Part shown: positions 3,600 through 52,136 of the stretch, in pieces | Layout of the letters: each line of letters opens with the position of its first letter | Position numbering within the stretch: position 1 is the stretch's first letter | The notes under the pieces: model-generated | Told to the model about the DNA's origin: nothing | Database searches by the model: none | What the model saw: only the letters and a program-made list of their open reading frames with translations | Program-made: the position numbers and the translations under genes | Source of the DNA: Desulfatitalea tepidiphila | GTDB taxonomy: Bacteria > Desulfobacterota > Desulfobacteria > Desulfobacterales > Desulfosarcinaceae | Length of the DNA: 64,000 bases | Direction of reading: 5' to 3' | Assembly (NCBI RefSeq): GCF_001293685.1 | Contig: NZ_BCAG01000003.1 | Coordinates: forward strand, 682,001-746,000

Positions 3600-3936
3600 T
3601 TTTTGTTTCTCCTTAGTTTCAACCGTGGGGCCCTGTTTGCTGTCGTGCGCGATCAGGCACATACTGCGTAGAATGCCACAGGCATGCCTGTACCTATCGG
3701 CGTCCATCCAAAATTGCAATGTGTTTAGACGATGCTTCAGCGCATGGATGACGGGCAGCCGGTTCAAATGAACCAAACAGAACCGCCACATGGATATTCA
3801 TCTGATTGGGCAATCGTACATTTATCGAGATTGACCAGATGGATAGAATGAATATGGTACGACGTAAACCAGGAACTCACAGTCGTTTTCGTAAATAGAC
3901 CCCGGTAAACGATCTTCCCTGGTCAAGGAGGGAAAA
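3600..3936. other. Intergenic region between the methyltransferase and cueP-like gene
   Basis: This 337-base divergent spacer has no frame with recognisable homology. It must hold the promoters of both flanking genes. A strong ribosome site, AAGGAGGG, lies just before the ATG at 3937. I saw no clear long inverted repeat or tRNA. Confidence 0.5.
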
Positions 3937-4482
3937 ATGAACCCAAAAAAGATACTCATCGGCTTGTTGTTTTCGGTAGGCCTGATGCTTGGAGTTTCCA
4001 GCTGCCAACCCGATCCTCATTCCCCGGAAGGTATTTTGAAAAACGTCGATGCCAGGCAAGCCATTTCGATCGCAAATGAATGGAAGTGGTCCAAAAAAGA
4101 GATCAAGAGCCATGTGACGAGCCGCAACGTCGTGTTTGAAATACCCGAACATAAACCCATCCGGATTCCACTGCCTGATGATCAGATGATGATCGCCATT
4201 GCACCTTACATAAATCAGACACACACCTGAGGTGTTCACTTCATGTCCTCCTGTCAGGGGGAGCTGCCTGAAACAACGTTTGAAGTGAGCGCAATCGATC
4301 AGAAAGGAAATGAACTTTTTAAAGGACCCAAAACCACCTTGAAAAATGGCTTCTTTGAGATCTGGTTACCAAGGGACCGCAATATCCAGTTGACGATTCA
4401 AGGGTTGGGACTGAAAACCCAGGGGCAGATTGGGACCTTTGACCAAAGCGATACCTGTATTACCACGTTTCAATTGAAGTAA
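3937..4482 (+). CDS. cueP: CueP-like periplasmic copper-binding lipoprotein, probable selenoprotein (in-frame UGA at codon 98)
   Basis: Two apparent frames, 3937-4230 and 4243-4482, are one frame interrupted by a single TGA at 4228-4230 (codon 98); read through, it has 181 residues. The N-terminus is a lipoprotein signal ending LGVSSC (Cys23). Before the TGA it reads MMIAIAPYINQTHT and after it SSCQGEL, NGFFEIWLPRD and DTCITT, all CueP landmarks. CueP delivers copper in the periplasm. In Salmonella CueP the three conserved metal cysteines are, as I recall, 96, 104 and 172; here UGA98, Cys106 and Cys174 fall at identical spacing. The stop therefore replaces exactly the first metal cysteine, as expected for selenocysteine. 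A hairpin follows (4246-4262). The alternative is a nonsense pseudogene, but the rest is intact. Strong site AAGGAGGG precedes the ATG. Confidence 0.8.
4246..4262 (+). promoter_or_regulatory. SECIS-like hairpin downstream of the in-frame UGA
   Basis: After the TGA at 4228-4230, TCCTCC (4246-4251) pairs with GGGGGA (4257-4262) across a five-base loop TGTCA, giving six pairs with one G-U. An outer TTCA/TGAA pairing (4240-4243 with 4268-4271) can extend it. The loop has G in its second position, 22 bases after the UGA, within the range described for bacterial SECIS elements read by SelB. The hairpin is short, so this is supportive rather than proof. Confidence 0.5.
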
Positions 4483-4684: not shown

Positions 4685-5332
4685 ATGATCTATACCGAAG
4701 AAACCTTGAACCTCGCCCATGCCAGCTTCGAGGCGCTGGACAACTATATCGAATTTGCCCAGGAGAAATTGGTGCCTGTGCTGCCGGAGCTGGGGGCAAG
4801 GTTGATCGCAGCGTTGAGCAGCGACGTCGAGTGGTTCTGCCAGGTCAAGCAGATCATGGAATTCGATAACATGGCGTCGCTCAAGGCGTTTCGCGTGAAC
4901 TGCAGTCGGAGCAAAGCCTGGGGAGACTACGCCGCCGGGCTCGAGGACCATGCGCCTGTAAGGTCCTGCCGGCTGTTGGAACCCCTTGGACATGCCGTTC
5001 CAAGCGAGGTTCTGCACCAAGCCATTGCCGACAGCAGGGAAACGCCGAACCACGGCTATTTGTTTGCCATACTGGAAGCCGCCAATGGGCAGATGGCCAA
5101 GCTGGAAGCGGGGCTTGCGGAGTCCCGGAAATTCGTGCCGATCATTGCCAGCTGGCGGCCCATCAGCGGAAGCCCGAATGAAGTCATCGATGTCTGGAAA
5201 TCCCCGGAGCCCCAGCAGAAATACGAGCCAGCAGGAGAGTGGCGGACAAAGTTTTTAAGGAGTGTCCGGCTGCTGGCCCCGAAAGAAAGGGCGATGCGGC
5301 TGATCGCCCTGCCATTTTCACCCCTGCGGTAG
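4685..5332 (+). CDS. NIPSNAP-like hypothetical protein
   Basis: 215 residues with a good ribosome site (GAAGGAG) before the ATG. There is no signal peptide, membrane helix or cofactor motif. The segment FVPIIASWRPISGSPNEVIDVW resembles the NIPSNAP/ferredoxin-like alpha-beta barrel ending, in which a W-x-x-x-x-G-x-x-N-x-V-I-x-x-W pattern recurs, and two such half-repeats may be present. Proteins of this fold are small and mostly uncharacterised. It is read in the same direction as cueP, separated by about 200 bases. The family assignment is tentative. Confidence 0.5.
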   Translation: MIYTEETLNLAHASFEALDNYIEFAQEKLVPVLPELGARLIAALSSDVEWFCQVKQIMEFDNMASLKAFRVNCSRSKAWGDYAAGLEDHAPVRSCRLLEPLGHAVPSEVLHQAIADSRETPNHGYLFAILEAANGQMAKLEAGLAESRKFVPIIASWRPISGSPNEVIDVWKSPEPQQKYEPAGEWRTKFLRSVRLLAPKERAMRLIALPFSPLR

Positions 5333-5383
5333 AGAATATTCGGGACTCTTCGAGGATGGTTCCATATTTTTATGGCTCTATTT

Positions 5384-7726
5384 TTATGGAGATGCGGCCG
5401 AATCCGGCTGATCCAGTACAGATCTCACTTTATCCGTCAACCCCCTGATGGAAAATGGTTTTTGCATGAAATGGACGTTATTCTCCAGGACGCCCCGGTG
5501 CATGATGATATTTGAAGTGTATCCGGACATGTACAGGACTTTGATGGCGGGTCTGACTCGAATCAGACGCTCTTTCAGCTCCTTGCCGTTCATTTCAGGC
5601 ATGACCACGTCGGTGATCAATAGATGGATGGCTCCTGGATGGCCAAGGGCCTGCTCCAACGCCTGGGAGGGTTTCTGGGCTGTCAGCACCGTATAGCCAT
5701 TGTGTTCCAGCACACTTTTGATCAGATCCAGAATCGTTGCTTCATCCTCCACGACGAGGACCGTCTCGGTTCCTGTTGCAATGGGGGCGTCAGCGGCCCT
5801 TGTCGTATCCTCCAGCACCTGTTCAGACTTGGGCAGGTAGAGTCTGAACGTGGTTCCCATGCCCGGCTCGCTGTACACGTTGATAAACCCCTCGTTTTGC
5901 TTCACGATGCCGTAGACCGTGGCCAAGCCCAACCCGGTGCCTTCGCCGACTTCCTTGGTGGTGAAAAACGGTTCGAAGGCATTTTGAAGGGTTAGCTTGT
6001 CCATGCCGCAGCCGTCATCGCTGACCGCCAGCATCACATACGCCCCGGGCTTGAAGCCGGCGTGAACCGCGCAATAGTCCTCATCCAGGACCCGGTTCCT
6101 GGTTTCGATGGTGATGGTTCCCACCCCTGCGATGGCATCTCGGGCATTCACGCACAGGTTGGTCAGGAGCTGGTTCACCTGGGTCGGGTCCATCTTGACC
6201 GCCCACAGGGTCGTGGCCGGATGCCACAACAGTTCGACATCCTCCCCGATCAAGCGGCGCAACATCTTCAGCGAGGTTTCGACCACGTGGTTGAGATCGA
6301 GCACTTTGGGCGAGATGGCCTGTTTGCGGGCAAAAGCTAAAAGCTGCTGGGTCAGATCCGCCGACCGTTCGGCAGCGCGGTAGATTTCCTGTAAACTCGA
6401 CCGATGGGGGTCGTCCGGCGCCATTCCCAGCAGCATCAGTTCGGTGCGGCCCAGGATGGTGCTGAGCATGTTGTTGAAGTCGTGGGCGATACCGCCGGCC
6501 AATGTCCCGACCGCCTCCATTTTCTGTACCTGGCGCAACCCATCCTCCAGCCGCTTCAACTCCGTAATATCGGACAAGGTGACCAGGGCCCGGCCGTCGG
6601 CCAGAAAAACCCCGTGAAACTCGACATCCTTGATCCGGCCGTCCTCGCAGGTCACCTTGAACTCCCGCGCGGCACGGACGGTCTGCCTGGCGGCCTCCCA
6701 ATCCTCGATCACCTGTCGGCGGTAATCCGGGTCCGGATAGGCGCGGGGAAACCAGTCGTCCAGATGGTTGATCTCCACCTGGGTGTATCCGGTGAGGTCG
6801 GTGAACCCCTTGTTGGCCACCACCAGGCGGCCGCAGCGGTCCCAGATGGTGATTCCCAGGGGAAGGCTTTCGAACAGGTTGTTGAGCATATCGCGCTGGT
6901 TGCGCAAGGTCTCGTAAGCCTGAATCTCTTCGGTGATATCGTGGGCCACGGCATAGGTGACCCTTTTTTCCGGGGCCGGGTGGGACACCCAGTTCAGCCA
7001 GCGGTAGTCGCCGTTTTTGCAGCGATAGCGATTCTTGAAGTTGATGACCTTTTCACCGCGCCGAAGCTTGTCGGCGATCTTCCGGCGGGTGGCATCGACG
7101 TCGTCCGGATGGACGAATTCGGTGAACGGCACGGAGAGCAGTTCCGCCTCGCTGTAGCCGAGGGTAGCCATAAAGGCGGGATTGACTTTGAGGAAAGTGG
7201 CGGTTTCGATGTCGGCGATGCAGATCATGTCCAGGGACATGTTAAACAGGGTCTGCTGTTCCGACTGGGCGTGTCGGATCTCGCTGATATCGACGACAGC
7301 GCCCACAAGTCCGGCCACCTCGCCCTTTTCGTCGCGGAACACATGCTTATGGTAAATGACGGGCCGGATACGGCCCATTTTGTCTTTGACCTCGAATTCA
7401 TAGACTTGCAATTGCGGGTTCTTGAGAAGATCCAGGTCCTTTTGATGATAGATCCGGGCGTGCTCGCCGGGCCACAGCTCCTCGACAGTTTTTCCGCGGA
7501 TCTGTTCGGCGGTGACGCCCATCAGATCAGTAAACGCTCTGTTGCAGCCTTGATAGCGGCCGCGGGTGTCCTTGTAAAATATCGGCGTCGGGATCGAGGC
7601 CAGCAGTGATTCGGTAAAATTCAGGCTGCGCTTGAGTTCGGCTTCCAACTGCCCCAGGTGTCGGGTTCGGGCTTCGAGGTCGGCAACCCGCTGCTGCAAC
7701 GCTTCATAGGTGGGTTTGGCGGGCAT
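5384..7726 (-). CDS. Hybrid sensor histidine kinase with three PAS domains and receiver
   Basis: 780 residues, no membrane segment, so cytoplasmic. Domain order: short coiled coil 5-35; PAS 35-150; PAS 155-270; PAS 280-392; HisKA with the phosphorylated His415 in GGIAHDFNN; HATPase with N box around 527 (NARD), G1 box DDGCGM and G2 box GTGLGL; and a C-terminal receiver domain with acceptor Asp706 (ITDVVMP) and Lys756. The FNN-type H box places it with the PAS/NtrB-like HisKA_4 group common in deltaproteobacteria. The receiver on the same chain suggests a phosphorelay or autoregulation. No cognate regulator lies alongside. GGGGGAA precedes the ATG at 7726. Confidence 0.92.
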   Translation of the reverse strand: MPAKPTYEALQQRVADLEARTRHLGQLEAELKRSLNFTESLLASIPTPIFYKDTRGRYQGCNRAFTDLMGVTAEQIRGKTVEELWPGEHARIYHQKDLDLLKNPQLQVYEFEVKDKMGRIRPVIYHKHVFRDEKGEVAGLVGAVVDISEIRHAQSEQQTLFNMSLDMICIADIETATFLKVNPAFMATLGYSEAELLSVPFTEFVHPDDVDATRRKIADKLRRGEKVINFKNRYRCKNGDYRWLNWVSHPAPEKRVTYAVAHDITEEIQAYETLRNQRDMLNNLFESLPLGITIWDRCGRLVVANKGFTDLTGYTQVEINHLDDWFPRAYPDPDYRRQVIEDWEAARQTVRAAREFKVTCEDGRIKDVEFHGVFLADGRALVTLSDITELKRLEDGLRQVQKMEAVGTLAGGIAHDFNNMLSTILGRTELMLLGMAPDDPHRSSLQEIYRAAERSADLTQQLLAFARKQAISPKVLDLNHVVETSLKMLRRLIGEDVELLWHPATTLWAVKMDPTQVNQLLTNLCVNARDAIAGVGTITIETRNRVLDEDYCAVHAGFKPGAYVMLAVSDDGCGMDKLTLQNAFEPFFTTKEVGEGTGLGLATVYGIVKQNEGFINVYSEPGMGTTFRLYLPKSEQVLEDTTRAADAPIATGTETVLVVEDEATILDLIKSVLEHNGYTVLTAQKPSQALEQALGHPGAIHLLITDVVMPEMNGKELKERLIRVRPAIKVLYMSGYTSNIIMHRGVLENNVHFMQKPFSIRGLTDKVRSVLDQPDSAASP

Positions 7727-8118
7727 GGATTCCCCCTGCGTGCGTGATTCCTGTCCATCTTGTAATAGGACGTTTTCTTTTCACCACTGAGTATGGCAGT
7801 ACTGCCCATTTGTGTCAATACGCAAATAAATACAGTACCTTGTACTTCATGGCGATCCTGTCTTCGTAAACAGGACGGTATCGGGCCGTTGTATTCAAAA
7901 ACGGTCGAGTCATAGCCTGCCGGTTTTGTTTGCCATAGACAGGGAAAAGGCCGTAAATACACGGGTCATATTTAACGAAATGTCAAAAGCAATAACGGAA
8001 AAATGCCCGGTGGTTCAAAACGAAGGGGGCGGCGACAGGCTGCTTGTGCCACCGCAGCATCATGATTCAGGCAGTTTGGTAGAGATAATGACTCTTAAAA
8101 AGTGGAGTGGAGATAATC
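7727..8118. other. Divergent intergenic region with small palindromes
   Basis: 392 bases between the histidine kinase and the cation ATPase, holding both promoters. I see a perfect 12-base palindrome, GGCAGTACTGCC, at 7795-7806 close to the kinase start, and a small hairpin around 7857-7875 (TCCTGT paired with ACAGGA). Either could be an operator; neither matches a motif I know. No convincing gene. Confidence 0.35.
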
Positions 8119-10797
8119 GTGAGTGAAGAGAAAGGCACCTCGATCGACTGGCACCGGCTGGATTCAAATGAGGCCGCGCGGAAACTGAAGTCATCCGAAA
8201 CGGGTCTTGCCGCCGAAGAGGCGCGCCGCCGCTATGCGCAATACGGACCCAACGAACTCATCGAAAAACAGCGCAAATCGTTGTGGATGATGTTTTTGGA
8301 TCAGTTCAAGGACTTCATGATTCTCGTGCTGATCGCCGCCGCCTTCGTGGCGGGGGTGATCGGCGAACCGGCGGACAGTATCGCCATCGCCGTGATCGTC
8401 ATGCTGAACGCCGTACTGGGGTTCGTACAGGAATACCGGGCCGAAAAGGCCATGGATGCGCTGAAAAAGCTGGCGGCCCCCTCTGCCGTCGTGATCCGGG
8501 ACGGGCAGGCCGCGTCGGTCGCCGCGGCGCAATTGGTGCCGGGCGATCTCGTGATCCTGGAGGCCGGCAACGTGGTTCCGGCCGATCTTCGGCTGACCGA
8601 GGCGGTCCGGCTCCGCATCCAGGAGTCCGCCCTGACCGGCGAGTCCGTGGCCGTGGAAAAGGACAGCCGGTCCATCGAGGAGGCGGACCTGCCCATCGGC
8701 GACCGCAGGAACATGGCCTACAAAGGCACCCTGGTGACCTACGGCCGGGGACAGGGACTGGTGACCGGCACCGGCATGCGAACCGAGCTCGGGCGGATCG
8801 CCGGCATGCTCCAGGACCAGGGTGAGGGGCGGACCCCGTTGCAGAAACGGCTCACCACGTTCGGGCAGAAGCTCGCCTGGGCCGTGCTGGCCATTTGCTT
8901 CATCGTATTCGTCACCGGATTGCTCAGGGGAGAGCCGCCGCTCCTGATGCTCCTGACTGCGATTTCGCTGGCGGTGGCGGCCATTCCAGAGGCCTTGCCC
9001 GCGGTGATCACCATCTCCCTGGCGCTCGGCGCCAGGAAGCTGGTCAGGCAGCAGGCGCTGGTGCGAAAACTGCCGGCCGTGGAAACCCTCGGATCGGTCA
9101 CCTATATCTGTTCCGACAAAACCGGCACGCTGACGCTGAACCGCATGGTCGTGGAAGAGGTCTATGTCGACGGCCGCCGGCAACCGTCCAGGGAGATATC
9201 GCCGCTGGCCCGGGAGACCGGCGCAGGCGGGACGCCATCGGGCGGGGATGCCGTGGATCTGTTGTTCAGCGCCATGGCGCTGTGCAACGACACCCGTCGG
9301 GAAGGTTCGGACACCCTCATCGGCGATCCCACCGAAACGGCGCTGTTCGAGCTGGCCCGCGCAAAAGGGTACGACCGGGACAAGCTGCATGAAAGCCATC
9401 CCCGGGTGGCGGAGATTCCCTTTGATTCGGACCGTAAACTCATGACCACGTTCCATCCATGGAAAGACGGCCGGGTCGTTTCCTTTACCAAGGGAGCGGT
9501 CGAGGAAATTCTGGAGCGTTCCGAATCGGCTGTCGGCAACCGCGGGCAGGAGGCGGTGGACCGCCCGAAAATCCTTGAAGCGGCGGACCAGATCGCCGGC
9601 AACGGCCTGAGAACCCTGGGATTTGCCATGCGTGTGTGGGACGCCGTTCCCGATCCCCCGACCTCGGAACAGGCGGAAAAAGCCATGGTCTTTATCGGCA
9701 TGGTCGGCCTGATGGATCCGCCCCGGCCCGAAGCGGCGGAGGCCGTGGCCATGTGCCGGTCGGCGGGCATCCGGCCGGTGATGATCACCGGAGACCATCC
9801 GCTGACCGCTGCAAAGATCGCGGAGCGGGTCGGGATCATCCGCGCCGAGGGGGAGGGTGTCCTGACCGGGCGGGAACTCTCCCGGCTGCCATTGGAAGCA
9901 TTCGAGGACCGGGTGGAGCGGATCCGGGTCTATGCCCGGGTCGCCCCGGAGCAGAAACTGAAGATCGTCGAGGCCCTGCAGGACAAGGGACATTTCGTGG
10001 CCATGACCGGGGACGGGGTCAACGATGCGCCGGCGCTGAAACGGGCGGACATCGGGGTGGCCATGGGCATCACCGGCACGGATGTGTCCAAGGAGGCCTC
10101 CCACATGATTCTGCTGGACGATAATTTCGCCACCATCGTCAAGGCCGTGCGGGAAGGGCGGCGCATCTTCGACAACATCCGCAAATTCATCAAATACACC
10201 ATGACCAGCAATTCCGGGGAGATCGTCACGATTTTCCTGGCGCCGTTTCTCGGCCTGCCCATCCCCCTGCTGCCGATCCACATCCTGTGGATCAACCTGG
10301 TGACCGACGGGGTGCCCGGTCTGGCGCTGACCGCCGAACCCGGCGAGCGCAACATCATGAGCCGCCCCCCGCGGCACCCCAGGGAGAGTATTTTCGCCAA
10401 TGGGCTCGGCGTCCACATCGTATGGGTCGGTCTGCTCATGGGCGCGGTGTCCATCGTCACCCAGGCCCTGTTCATCAACAGCACCCAGACCCACTGGCAA
10501 ACCATGGTGTTTACGGTTTTGTGCCTGAGTCAGATGGGGCACGTGCTGGCCATTCGCTCCGAGCAGGACTCTTTTTTCAAACAGGGCGCCTTTTCGAACA
10601 AGCCTCTCCTGGGTGCCGTGCTGCTGACATTCGCTCTTCAGATGGCCACGATTTATGTCCCGGTGCTCAACCCGATCTTTAAGACCGCGCCGCTGACCGC
10701 CGGCGAGCTTGTCATCACGTTGCTGCTGTCCACGGTCGTGTTTTTGGCGGTGGAGATCGAAAAGACCATCAAAAGGTCGAAACTGAAGCGTTCTTGA
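8119..10797 (+). CDS. P-type cation-transporting ATPase (P2A, calcium-type)
   Basis: I start at the GTG at 8119, preceded by GGAG at six bases; an in-frame GTG at 8107 is less well placed. About 892 residues. It begins with a cation-ATPase N-terminal domain, then TGES (actuator), the M4 motif IPEALP, the phosphorylation site CSDKTGTLT near residue 333, and the hinge GDGVNDAP. About ten membrane segments, including a C-terminal block, match SERCA-like P2 pumps. It would move a cation (calcium or a related ion) across the inner membrane at the cost of ATP; ion identity is not settled by these motifs. It stands alone, read divergently from the kinase. Confidence 0.92.
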
Positions 10798-22166: not shown

Positions 22167-22746
22167 TGCGCCCCAGGATACCCAGAAAATCATCCAGGTG
22201 CTGCTGCGCGGGTACCAGTTCAGCGACTCGGATCTTTACAAGGCGGTCTACGACCGCTGGTACGCGATCCTGGACCGGCATTTCGACTGGTTCCGGGATC
22301 ACCTGGCGCTGAGCGGGTTCACCCTGTCGCGTGAGAAGCAGGTGATCTTTCTCGAAAAGGAGAACAAGACCCTCAGCCAGGAGGAGCGACAGGCCGTGGT
22401 GGCGCTTTTCCTGCTGGCCGATCTGTGGCTGGAAAAGGGCAAGAGCTACGGCGACCTGTTTCAACTGAGCGTTCCCTGGGCCGAACTGGACTGGTTCCGG
22501 GACGGGTACGGCAAGGAGTACCTCGACCAGGTGGGCATCGAAGGCGGCAACGACGGCGCCCTGGAACAGCTCTTCCGGCGCCTGGCCAACAAGGGGTTTC
22601 TGGAATACGACGACAATGCGCGGACGATGACGCTGCGACGGCCCGCCGAACGGCTGATCGACTTGGCGCGGCGGCTGCACCAGCAGATCAACACCGGGGA
22701 GCCGGACGACACCGTGGCAGAAGCACAAGAGCAGGGCGATGCATAA
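22159..22746 (+). CDS. jetB: Wadjet JetB (MksE/MukE-like)
   Basis: 195 residues from the ATG at 22159 inside the end of jetA; an upstream in-frame ATG (22108) lies too deep within jetA. It contains a helical region and a predicted winged-helix-like segment near the end (LEQLFRRLANKGFLEYDDNARTMTL), matching the small MukE/MksE subunit that bridges the kleisin. The C-terminus is acidic and probably disordered. It overlaps jetA by eight bases and jetC by eight bases, so all are translated in fixed ratio. Confidence 0.82.
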   Translation: MVDAPQDTQKIIQVLLRGYQFSDSDLYKAVYDRWYAILDRHFDWFRDHLALSGFTLSREKQVIFLEKENKTLSQEERQAVVALFLLADLWLEKGKSYGDLFQLSVPWAELDWFRDGYGKEYLDQVGIEGGNDGALEQLFRRLANKGFLEYDDNARTMTLRRPAERLIDLARRLHQQINTGEPDDTVAEAQEQGDA

Positions 22747-25504
22747 CTACACCAGCAGCATCCGCAGAATCGGGCTGATCAACAGCGGCATGTTCGACAC
22801 CCTCAGCCTCAACTTCGATGTCGAGGCCGTTCACCTGGTGGGCGCCAACAACGTGGGCAAGACCAGCCTGATCGCGCTGATCCAGTTTCTCTTCTTCCCC
22901 ACCATCCAGGAGATGACTTTCATCAAGCCGGTGGGAGAATCGCTGAACTTTTACTTCCGGCCGGAAGGTTCCTATATCCTCTTCGAGGTGCGCACCATCA
23001 CCGGCAGCATCCGCACGGTGGGCATCTACGGCACCGGCGAATCGGACTCGCGGGTCAACTTCGTGTTCAACGGGGCTTTCGATCTACAGGCGTTTCTCGG
23101 CCCGGACAAAGCGCCGCTGCCGTTGCAGGAGCTCCAGTCCGCTTTCTTTACCCGCGACTTCGCCCGTTTCGATCGCTTCGAGCGCTACGAAGAGGCCCTG
23201 CTGGGGCTGCACACGCGCAGCGAGTACAACGTGCCCATGTTCGATCTCTCCAAGACCAACTTCCGGCTGCTTCGGAAACTCATGCAGGGGCTGCTGCGGC
23301 TGGACCGCATCGACGCGGCCGATGTACAGCAGTTCTTGATCCGCATCGTGGAAAAGGGGGCGGTCAGGACCAGCTTCAACTTGCTGCAGGATTTCGAGCA
23401 GAAGTACCGGCACATCAACCGGCTGCGGATCGAGCTGCACGAGCTGGAAGGGCTCAAACCGGTCATGGCCCGCTACCAGTCGATCCTGGCCCAGATCGCC
23501 GCGGCCGAGGAGAACCGGCAGCGACATGCCGAACGGCTGTATCACTTGTCTGCGGTTTACCTGGCCCGACTGGCCGCGGAAAAAGAGGCGCGCGCCGGCG
23601 AGAATCAACGCCAGGAAGAGCGGCAGGTGCGGCTGGATCAATCGATCAGGCGCCTGGTGCAGCGCATTCACGAGGCCGGGACCGAACTGAAAGATATCGA
23701 GGCCCGGAAGGCGCGTTTCGCAAAGCTTTCCGAGATCTGCTCCCGGCACTCGGAACCCTTGATCCGCCAGGAGCGGGACGAATTGACCCACAGCCGGGTG
23801 GAGTTGCAGAACGCCCTGGCGGCGGTTCAGGCGGGCGATGCCGGGGATCTGCAACGGCAGTTGCGCAGTCTGGAACGCGAACATGAGCGTGTGCTGCGCC
23901 TGATGCAGGCCGGCACCCTGCAGCAGCTTTGGGAGGAGGCCGGTTTCGACGAATCCCATCGGGCGCTGCTCAGGTTCCTGGTCTCCCATGATCTGGCCAG
24001 TCTGCGGGCGGCCGAGGTCTTGACCGACCGGGAGGCGTTTCTGGACGCTTCGGCCCGGGTCACCGGATTCCTGGATGAGGAGGGGCGCTTCCAGGCGTTC
24101 GGCCTGGATGTGCCCCGGTCCGCGTGGTTCGTGCCCGACAAGGAGCAGGAACCCCTGGCGTCTCGGAAATCGCGGCTCGAAAGCGACATGGCCAAGGTGC
24201 GCGCGCGGATCGAGATCGCCGGAAACGTGGCCCGCAAGGAGCAGGAGCTCAGGGACCTGGATGCGGCTGTCCGGGACAAGGAGACGCTTCTGGGCCAGTT
24301 CGCCGAGCTGCAGGAGTTGACGGCCCGCTGGGAAAATGCCGATCGCCTCGCTGCCGAAGAGAAGCGGTTGGGCGAGGCGGTGCAGCGGATGAGCCAATCC
24401 CAGGAAGAGCAGGAGAAGGAGAACCAGGCCCTGCGCCGGGAGCAGCTCAAGACCCATGCCGCCCTGCAGGCCGCCCAGGCCCAGTGGGAGCATGTGAGCC
24501 GCGCGCACGATCGGTTGACGTTCTGTGAGAGCGACGCGCCGCAACAATTGGACGAGCTCACCCTGGAGGCCTTGCGTGACGAATATCGCCAGCTGCAGGC
24601 CCAACTGGAAGAGATCGTCAAGGCCATGGGGCGCCTGCAAAACGATTTGAACGAGCCCAAGGCCGAGCTCGAGGCACGCTACGAGCGGGCCGCGGCCGAC
24701 ATCTCCTTCGAGCGCTGGCTGGCCCAGAAGGCAAACCTGGCCGAAGAGGTCGGCGGGCTGGAAGCCCAGCTGCAGCGCGAGTACGATGGGGTTTTCACCC
24801 TCGTGCGGGCCAAGCTCTCCAAGATCACCCAGGCCTACGCCGGGGTCGAGGCCCAGGTGGCGGCGCTGAACAAGGCGGTGCGCAACGTGCGCATCTCCAA
24901 CATCGAACAGATCGGCGTGGCCCTGGAGAAGACCGACCTGCTGGACGCCATCGACCACAGCACGCCGGGCCAGCTGGACCTGTTCGCCGCCAGTTCGCCG
25001 GCCACACCCCTCGAAGCGGCCCACGCCATCGTGGAAGATTACTTCAACCAGATCAAAAAATACGGCAACGAGATCAACCTCAAGGACATGTTCCGCCTCA
25101 AGTTCTCGGTGCGGTTCAGCTACCAGGACAAGCCGGTGGAGCGTTACGAGATTCACCGCTTCGAATCCCACGGCACCGAGACCGGCGTCAAAATCGTCAT
25201 CTACCTGGGGCTGATCGGCCTGCTGCAGGAGCGCAAGAACATCGTCGGCACGCGCATCCCCTTCTTCCTCGACGAGGTGGGCAGCATCGACGCGGACAAC
25301 CTCAACCAGTTGATCGCCTACTGCGGCCGCAACAACTTTCTGCCCATCTTCGCCAGCCCGGAGATCCGCAAGGATATTTCCCACAACTACATTTTCCGGC
25401 GCAACGGCAGCCGCAGTTACCTGGCCGCCATGGTGAAGGTCACCAAGAAACCCCAACCGCCGGTGTCCGATGAAGCGCCCCGCCTGGCTGACCACGCTTC
25501 TTGA
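22739..25504 (+). CDS. jetC: Wadjet JetC (MksB/MukB-like SMC ATPase)
   Basis: 921 residues. Walker A is GANNVGKT at residues 35-42; a long coiled coil runs roughly from 270 to 760 with a hinge-like globular part near the middle (about 395-480); Walker B (IPFFLDEVGSID) is near residue 840. This is the MukB/MksB-type SMC motor that loops DNA. The size is closer to the shorter MksB forms than to the 1,100-residue ones, which bears on Wadjet subtype, but I do not assign a subtype. It overlaps jetD by 35 bases. Confidence 0.9.
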   Translation: MHNYTSSIRRIGLINSGMFDTLSLNFDVEAVHLVGANNVGKTSLIALIQFLFFPTIQEMTFIKPVGESLNFYFRPEGSYILFEVRTITGSIRTVGIYGTGESDSRVNFVFNGAFDLQAFLGPDKAPLPLQELQSAFFTRDFARFDRFERYEEALLGLHTRSEYNVPMFDLSKTNFRLLRKLMQGLLRLDRIDAADVQQFLIRIVEKGAVRTSFNLLQDFEQKYRHINRLRIELHELEGLKPVMARYQSILAQIAAAEENRQRHAERLYHLSAVYLARLAAEKEARAGENQRQEERQVRLDQSIRRLVQRIHEAGTELKDIEARKARFAKLSEICSRHSEPLIRQERDELTHSRVELQNALAAVQAGDAGDLQRQLRSLEREHERVLRLMQAGTLQQLWEEAGFDESHRALLRFLVSHDLASLRAAEVLTDREAFLDASARVTGFLDEEGRFQAFGLDVPRSAWFVPDKEQEPLASRKSRLESDMAKVRARIEIAGNVARKEQELRDLDAAVRDKETLLGQFAELQELTARWENADRLAAEEKRLGEAVQRMSQSQEEQEKENQALRREQLKTHAALQAAQAQWEHVSRAHDRLTFCESDAPQQLDELTLEALRDEYRQLQAQLEEIVKAMGRLQNDLNEPKAELEARYERAAADISFERWLAQKANLAEEVGGLEAQLQREYDGVFTLVRAKLSKITQAYAGVEAQVAALNKAVRNVRISNIEQIGVALEKTDLLDAIDHSTPGQLDLFAASSPATPLEAAHAIVEDYFNQIKKYGNEINLKDMFRLKFSVRFSYQDKPVERYEIHRFESHGTETGVKIVIYLGLIGLLQERKNIVGTRIPFFLDEVGSIDADNLNQLIAYCGRNNFLPIFASPEIRKDISHNYIFRRNGSRSYLAAMVKVTKKPQPPVSDEAPRLADHAS

Positions 25505-26285
25505 AACGGGCAGGGTGGCCCATTCGGCCGCCGACGGCCGGGTCGTGGGCGAGTTGCTCGCCCTGGAGATCGTCGCCATTCGCAGCGCCGGTCTGCGGCG
25601 GACCGTGGTGGCCGCCGATCCGGCCCAGTTGCGCCAATGGACGGACGCCAGGTACCCGCCGCATGCGGTCGATTGGCAGACCCTGCCCACGCGCCAGGCC
25701 AATATCGTGCGCAGCGGCGGGAGCAAAATCGGCAGGAGCGCCCATTCGGTGCTACCGTTTCTCTTCAAGTGGTTCGGCGACGGCCCATTGAGCGCCATGA
25801 CCCGCACCTATGGCATGGCCGCCGCGTGCAGCGACCGGCTGGCCGAATTGCCCGTGCCGGTCCGCTGGCGGCTGCTCACCATCGAAAACTGGGAGCCGTT
25901 TCACCGCACCGACTATACCGGTGCACCTGTCCCGGTGATGGCGGCCTACCTGGGCGGCAATGTCTCCGAGATGGTACTCGACGCCCTCAATGCCTTTCGC
26001 CACCCTCCGGAAACCGTGCTGCACTTCGGCGATTACGACTGGGAGGGGCTTTACATTTTCCAGCGTCTGCAAAAGGTGGTGCCCTCGGCCAGGCTTTACA
26101 TTCCAACGAACCTGGAGACGCTCTTTCAGCAGTACAGTCGCCGGGAATTTCTCGACAAGCAGAAGCGCAAGGCCGCCTTCGACACCGACAATCCCGAATG
26201 CGGGCCGGTGATCCGGCTGATCGAACAGTACAACGGTGGAGTGGAGCAGGAGGTGGTGGATTTGCCGGAGATGCTTTCGCCTTGA
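25470..26285 (+). CDS. jetD: Wadjet JetD (MksG, Toprim nuclease subunit)
   Basis: 271 residues, starting 35 bases inside jetC. The Toprim catalytic residues are present: Glu139 in LLTIENWEPF and the Asp pair in FGDYDWEG at residues 187-193, as in topoisomerase VI-like DUF2220 nucleases. JetD cuts plasmid DNA once the SMC complex has extruded it. Many JetD proteins are 350-400 residues; this one seems to have a reduced N-terminal (DUF3322-like) region, although the nuclease core and the final GVEQE motif are intact. It ends just before foldback repeat A3. Confidence 0.87.
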   Translation: MKRPAWLTTLLETGRVAHSAADGRVVGELLALEIVAIRSAGLRRTVVAADPAQLRQWTDARYPPHAVDWQTLPTRQANIVRSGGSKIGRSAHSVLPFLFKWFGDGPLSAMTRTYGMAAACSDRLAELPVPVRWRLLTIENWEPFHRTDYTGAPVPVMAAYLGGNVSEMVLDALNAFRHPPETVLHFGDYDWEGLYIFQRLQKVVPSARLYIPTNLETLFQQYSRREFLDKQKRKAAFDTDNPECGPVIRLIEQYNGGVEQEVVDLPEMLSP

Positions 26286-51953: not shown

Positions 51954-52136
51954 CTGTGCGCTTTCCTGCCGGCCCTGCCGCGGGTGCAAATGGCGCCGGC
52001 CCTTATAGGGCCATGCCGGCAAAGGGAACCTGTGGGAAGATCCCCATGGATTGAAGTCGGTTTATGACATTTTGTTCAACGGTCGAAGAATGGGCCGTTT
52101 CGTCATGCGTTCCGGAGTTGGCAGGAAACAATCTGA

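Follow-up and report, generated by a model that had tools for sequence, protein, structure and literature searches.

A probable selenocysteine form of the copper protein CueP in Desulfatitalea tepidiphila and its relatives

The window analysed here is a stretch of 64,000 nucleotides of the Desulfatitalea tepidiphila genome (contig NZ_BCAG01000003.1, positions 682,001 to 746,000; the assembly comprises 5.6 Mb in 7 contigs). Its forward strand carries, at 3937-4482, a gene of the CueP family whose reading frame is interrupted by a single TGA. Comparison with related genes indicates that this gene very probably specifies a selenoprotein form of CueP with selenocysteine (Sec) at residue 98. Selenocysteine in CueP had been proposed in an original prediction made from the DNA letters; it is supported by a codon column occupied by TGA or Cys only, by covariation in a hairpin that follows, by the presence of the Sec machinery, and by recurrence of the arrangement in other genomes. 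(The gene, the column, the hairpin and the presence of the machinery are established in the sense in which comparison of sequences establishes such things.)

The gene runs as a single frame of 182 codons, counting the stop; it ends in TAA and is otherwise interrupted only at codon 98. With Cys substituted for Sec in scoring, its product matches the Pfam CueP profile (PF21172) at 106.4 bits, against a cut-off of 27, and the NCBIfam model CueP_fam (NF038094) at 137 bits, against a cut-off of 60, which bears out the proposal of a CueP-like gene with one in-frame TGA; the model of the Salmonella-type metallochaperone CueP (NF038095) gives 93.8 bits, below its cut-off of 195. The TGA was also correctly placed at the first of the three conserved cysteine columns of the family (UGA98, Cys106 and Cys174), whose spacings of 8 and 68 residues are by alignment identical to those of Salmonella CueP (4gqz), the sole solved relative that turned up. 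The first and third of the Salmonella residues we take to be Cys96 and Cys172. The second is named as Cys104 in PMC13201067.

A CueP gene was found in 2 of 60 genomes searched, the genome under study and one of the same order (G054), which has the TGA too; 10 genomes of the same genus gave none. Within the phylum, 395 sampled genomes yielded seven with CueP, including that of the window: six have one TGA, always at the residue-98 column, and the seventh has no TGA and Cys at that column. A contig scan of genomes, with search patterns that did not include the residue-98 column, supplied 89 relatives. The best 80 of these were taken and, with 8 genes of the first sets, make 88; of these 87 fit the motif search, and removal of 5 duplicates leaves 82 distinct genes, with TGA in 47, TGC in 17 and TGT in 18 at the column. 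The order of Cytobacillus oceanisediminis (G509, L082) is a second source: among 397 genomes sampled, 88 have CueP, at 97 places, and 43 of these contain a single TGA and are free of other stops. Eighty of the 97 were compared (40 with TGA, 40 without), and 77 fit the motif, 39 with TGA and 38 with Cys; in the three that do not (L138 with TGA, L163 and L181 with Cys) the column is the same by eye. Pooled, the 159 distinct genes have TGA (86) or Cys (73) at residue 98 and nothing else, the column having been left free in the motif search, so that aligned homologues carry TGA or Cys exactly where the original prediction had pointed. Because the motif search itself specified the two His residues and the second Cys, their invariance among the 159 genes is by construction; they are likewise invariant in a 42-sequence alignment. 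The Sec form is distributed over two distant groups, Desulfobacterota-type genomes and the order of Cytobacillus, and examples of the Cys form of CueP_fam come from Thermaceae, Bacteroidota, Smithellaceae and many Bacillaceae. A plasmid search returned 22 records, all below 60% identity, and among the matches listed (15) the annotation is CueP family.

The gene of the initial 88 that does not fit the motif, L046 (Desulfobacterales; 5001-5399), is a CueP gene with TGA that has an additional in-frame TAG upstream, near the Gln41 column by eye, which may be an error, a sign of a broken gene or a pyrrolysine codon.

Sequencing error as the source of the TGA is rejected, because the same TGA recurs across many separate assemblies. 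As for a genuine stop, under the standard code the interval resolves into two open reading frames, 3937-4230 and 4243-4482, and would then be a pseudogene or encode a 97-residue protein, possibly with a second protein starting from the ATG at 4243. This is extremely improbable in view of the confinement of TGA to one column across 86 genes, the hairpin tied to it, and the purifying selection that acts after it. The median ratio of nonsynonymous to synonymous substitution rates (dN/dS) downstream of the TGA is 0.20 for 46 pairs of TGA genes (rows matched to their closest partner of equal length at dS 0.15-1.2; members are shared between pairs and partnerless rows excluded). The 83 codons 3' of the column contain no further TGA in any of the 157 genes with a readable tail (L151 and L182 excluded).

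A hairpin resembling the selenocysteine insertion sequence (SECIS) had been predicted behind the TGA. It is present (TCCTCCT-GTC-AGGGGGA at 4246-4262, covering nucleotides 16-32 after the UGA, with 22 nucleotides between TGA and loop), is complete in most TGA genes, covaries, and is mostly incomplete in Cys genes; taken singly, the fold of the window gene is not distinctive. The weight of the hairpin comes from comparison across genes (completeness and covariation) and not from the folding of one gene. Two consensus stems are found, UCCUCCU-GUC-AGGGGGA in the non-Bacilli set, whose TGA genes are of Desulfobacterota type, and CUUGACA-GGU-UGUCAAG, four bases closer to the UGA, in the Bacilli set. 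All seven pairs form in 23 of 26 non-Bacilli and 59 of 59 Bacilli TGA genes; for the Cys genes of the two sets the figures are 2 of 22 and 4 of 51 (in these counts L066, a Spirochaeta row, stands with the Bacilli set though the tree places it with the non-Bacilli rows, and L085 is excluded). Pooled, with L085 included, the complete 7-base-pair hairpin occurs in 82 of 86 TGA genes and in 6 of 73 Cys genes. Outside the pooled counts, the helix is found in L138 and L046 (TGA) and in L181 (Cys) and is lacking in L163 (Cys), with L138, L181 and L163 judged by eye.

Compensatory changes occur in both sets. Among 25 of the 26 non-Bacilli TGA genes (L006 excluded) C-G is replaced by U-A in 3 and by A-U in 1, and U-G by G-C in 2; among the 59 Bacilli TGA sequences U-A is replaced by C-G in 9 and A-U by G-C in 1. 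In the non-Bacilli covariation test, which included an eighth, outermost pair that is formed in only 3 of 25 sequences, 3 of the 8 pairs change on both sides; 0 of 500 shuffles attain the covariation score, and 13 of 500 attain that many two-sided pairs. A shift of the structure by one base still gives pairing in 80% of cells and a covariation score of 0.102 (vs 0.114), but no two-sided change. The codon of the second Cys, which lies inside the hairpin, is TGT in 85 of 86 TGA genes; in the Cys genes it is TGT in 32 and TGC in 39. Measured against synonymous recodings of 60 nucleotides, the window hairpin has p 0.047 for stem score and p 0.017 for folding energy. A search of the whole window with Rfam at gathering threshold gave no match. 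When the window was screened crudely for frames interrupted by TGA, 25 were found besides cueP; two of them, with TGA at 25502 and at 52052, equal or exceed the hairpin score of cueP (16.8), so the hairpin score alone fails to single out cueP. The TGA at 25502 lies at the end of an ATPase gene in a possible defence set and is therefore probably a plain stop.

The machinery for Sec incorporation, also foreseen, is encoded by the genome itself: tRNA-Sec (73.4 bits), selB (374 bits), selA (620 bits) and selD (380 bits) all score over cut-off. (In a control set of 14 well-known genomes, 5 pass for tRNA-Sec, 2 for SelB, 1 for selA and 2 for selD.) The selD gene of this genome (G000:C1:801085-802008) has one in-frame TGA of its own, and SelD is therefore probably a selenoprotein itself. 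Across 83 genomes (L048 is excluded, its genome being already represented by L042), SelB is over cut-off in 44 of 49 with TGA-CueP and in 11 of 34 with Cys-CueP (Fisher p 6e-8, kinship ignored). Among the five TGA-CueP genomes of this set in which SelB is not found, L018, L029 and L065 have tRNA-Sec, and L018 and L065 also have selA. For the order of Cytobacillus the count covers 73 of the 88 CueP genomes: SelB is present in 36 of 37 with a TGA copy among the genes compared and in 12 of 36 without (Fisher p 2e-9, kinship ignored; G556, which has both kinds, is counted as TGA, and G686, which carries another copy interrupted by TGA and TAG, as Cys).

UGA might instead be read without selenium, as tryptophan, as cysteine or by a near-cognate tRNA. 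In Mycoplasmatota TGA can encode tryptophan, and one of the genes, L085, which has TGA at the same column, comes from that group and has a helix that is incomplete in either register; its genome also has SelB and tRNA-Sec over cut-off. Taken with the occurrence of Cys in all 73 non-TGA genes and the association of TGA with SelB (in counts uncorrected for kinship), this makes a selenium-free reading of the codon very improbable.

A quick tree of the 159 sequences, made from 145 columns and with 70 of 154 inner branches left open, splits into two large sets of 49 and 110 rows, each with both Sec and Cys. The Sec/Cys labels require 21 changes, at least 6 of them on well-supported branches, and the two hairpin registers suggest separate gains of Sec. 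Natural neighbours on the tree are L028 (Cys) with L029 (Sec) and L081 (Cys) with L089 (Sec), the fork of the latter pair having a support of only 87. L028 (TGC) and L029, which are close relatives, both have the full hairpin, perhaps the mark of a recent switch.

Several observations weigh against Sec-CueP as described. The window hairpin by itself is unremarkable, since 91 of 200 dinucleotide shuffles of a 48-nucleotide stretch fold as well, and under gene-by-gene synonymous recoding just 10 of 26 and 1 of 20 TGA genes reach p 0.05 or lower (Cys genes: 2 of 22 and 1 of 13). The complete helix is missing in 4 of the 86 TGA genes. Of 6 independent pairs on well-supported branches, an average of 4.2 link the helix with TGA and 0.0 show the opposite (median p 0.125, range 0.0625-0.5), and of 4 such pairs 2.3 link SelB with TGA and 1.0 show the opposite (median p 1); corrected for kinship, the links of hairpin and SelB with TGA rest on few pairs. 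L019 and L087 have TGA-CueP with neither SelB, tRNA-Sec nor SelA over cut-off, and G727 lacks SelB. Contig numbers suggest that these three assemblies are fragmentary, and the cueP of L087 is identical over 400 nucleotides to that of L082, from which we think that it was misbinned. As regards copper, no copper gene was found beside cueP within the window, and the P-type ATPase at 8107-10797, 3.6 kb on, has general cation-ATPase domains and no heavy-metal domain.

How such a protein might work can be sketched. UGA98 would be decoded by SelB and Sec-tRNA with the aid of the short hairpin, and the product would be exported via its signal peptide and here probably anchored by lipid. (The lipoprotein character that had been predicted holds, by pattern, for the window protein, with its VSSC, but does not extend to the group at large: the crude lipobox pattern occurs in 4 of 26 TGA and 6 of 22 Cys genes of the non-Bacilli set, so that lipid anchoring is not the rule in the set to which the window protein belongs; in the Bacilli set the counts are 52 of 60 and 36 of 51.) Outside the cytoplasm, Cu(I) would be held by His96, Sec98, His101, Cys106 and Cys174, with reduced Sec98 most likely binding the metal. 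Oxidised Sec98 would form a selenenylsulfide with one of the cysteines, and thioredoxin-like partners would re-reduce it; given Sec, such a cycle is a tentative proposal that may well be wrong.

CueP of Salmonella is a copper protein of the periplasm, in which the conserved Cys and His residues gather on one face of the C-terminal domain (PMC7558416), and its C104S mutant loses copper protection (PMC13201067). Residue 98 is probably in the metal site because of this Cys/His cluster and of the phenotype of C104S, which affects the counterpart of Cys106. Given Sec, copper is likely, by analogy with the family, to be the main business of the protein. A mainly redox task (for instance the removal of oxidants or the reduction of Cu(II)), with the holding of copper secondary, is a less likely though substantial alternative. 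In its favour are direct scavenging of reactive oxygen species by Salmonella CueP (the wording of a title in reference lists), citing passages that link Scs disulfide reductases with CueP in Salmonella, TlpA-like genes directly downstream of cueP in 3 of 20 loci, and a review that regards most uncharacterised selenoproteins as redox proteins (PMC13188914); the C104S phenotype and the two invariant His of the motif argue the other way. It is unlikely that the natural ligand is a different soft metal, for example Hg(II) or Ag(I): the family is known from copper work in Salmonella, and heavy-metal ATPase and CusB-like genes lie near two CueP genes, though these do not separate copper from silver.

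Neighbouring genes lend modest support to a copper or redox role. Flanks of 20 loci were listed and chosen genes tested. Near the TGA gene of L031 lies a P-type ATPase that has heavy-metal-binding and YHS domains; L045 has an HMA protein near cueP, and L033, whose gene is of the Cys kind, a CusB-like protein. The TlpA-like genes (TlpA/AhpC-TSA) are those of L018, L020 and L022, followed in L018 and L022 by a MauE/DoxX-like gene; this arrangement recalls the Scs-CueP link of Salmonella. At the window locus the neighbours tested are a methyltransferase, a CCG-domain protein and a 215-residue protein without a Pfam match. Features of the gene are collected in Table 1.

Table 1. Features of the cueP gene of the window, with positions in the window and the basis of each assignment
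Feature	Position	Strand	Basis
cueP-family gene, one internal TGA read as selenocysteine (probable), 181 residues	3937..4482	+	profiles, alignment
AAGGAGGG, Shine-Dalgarno-like stretch ahead of ATG	3925..3932	+	sequence; function inferred
Predicted signal peptide, lipobox VSSC, putative lipidated Cys23 at 4003-4005	3937..4005	+	sequence and crude lipobox pattern
TGA, probable Sec98, first conserved Cys column	4228..4230	+	sequence, comparison across relatives
Codons His96-Thr-Sec98-Gly-Val-His101, putative metal site	4222..4239	+	both His invariant (42-sequence alignment); metal binding inferred from family
Cys106 codon TGT, within hairpin; Salmonella Cys104 counterpart by spacing	4252..4254	+	alignment, spacing
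SECIS-like hairpin, 7-bp stem 4246-4252 with 4256-4262, loop GUC 4253-4255	4246..4262	+	folding, comparison
Cys174 codon	4456..4458	+	sequence, alignment

Elsewhere in the window, a JetD-like protein (25470-26282, forward strand; PADLOC E 6e-11) adjoins a large ATPase (22739-25501) that has weak matches to defence ATPases, and the two, at 22739-26282, possibly form a Wadjet-like set. On the reverse strand, 755-1870 holds a Phd/YefM antitoxin (758-1027), a Fic/Doc-family protein (1184-1570) and a 98-residue open reading frame (1577-1870) without a Pfam match.

CueP is not among the 119 selenoprotein families and subfamilies in Table 1 of a 2026 review, and the word is lacking in its main text (PMC13188914); a literature search for CueP with selenocysteine or selenoprotein gave nothing relevant, though papers beyond its reach may mention Sec-CueP, and the NCBIfam family description does not mention selenium. 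Sec-CueP is new in the sense of not being found in these places. A probable selenoprotein family is thereby added; it is common in the order of Cytobacillus, and the standard code would truncate its genes at the UGA. The joint claim that Sec-CueP forms an overlooked family of selenoproteins, widespread in Desulfobacterota and Bacillaceae, that Sec was gained at least twice with the hairpin in two registers, and that selenium is a direct ligand of Cu(I) outside the cytoplasm is only a little short of an even proposition. Selenium as a biological copper ligand outside the inner membrane becomes a testable question, and Sec/Cys pairs in close relatives (L028/L029 and L081/L089) would allow the benefit of selenium to be compared.

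Sec in metal handling has its parallels among the predicted selenoproteins of Table 1 of that review, which include CopZ-like 2Fe-2S proteins, a cation-transporting ATPase (UxxC), a MerT-like protein and the SO_0444 Cu/Zn efflux transporter; these belong to other families and have other motifs, and none is named in that table as copper-binding outside the cytoplasm (PMC13188914). With Salmonella CueP the window protein shares its family and the spacing of the cysteine columns, and it differs in having UGA, and probably Sec, in place of the first Cys and in falling under the cut-off of the Salmonella-type model. The Cys-form CueP_fam proteins are direct homologues that differ in a TGC or TGT codon at the column, and 67 of the 73 genes lack the complete helix. 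A bacterial SECIS, as in E. coli fdhF, consists of a short stem and a small, G-containing loop close behind the UGA. The CueP hairpin is like it in stem, loop and position, and unlike it in coming in two registers 4 nucleotides apart.
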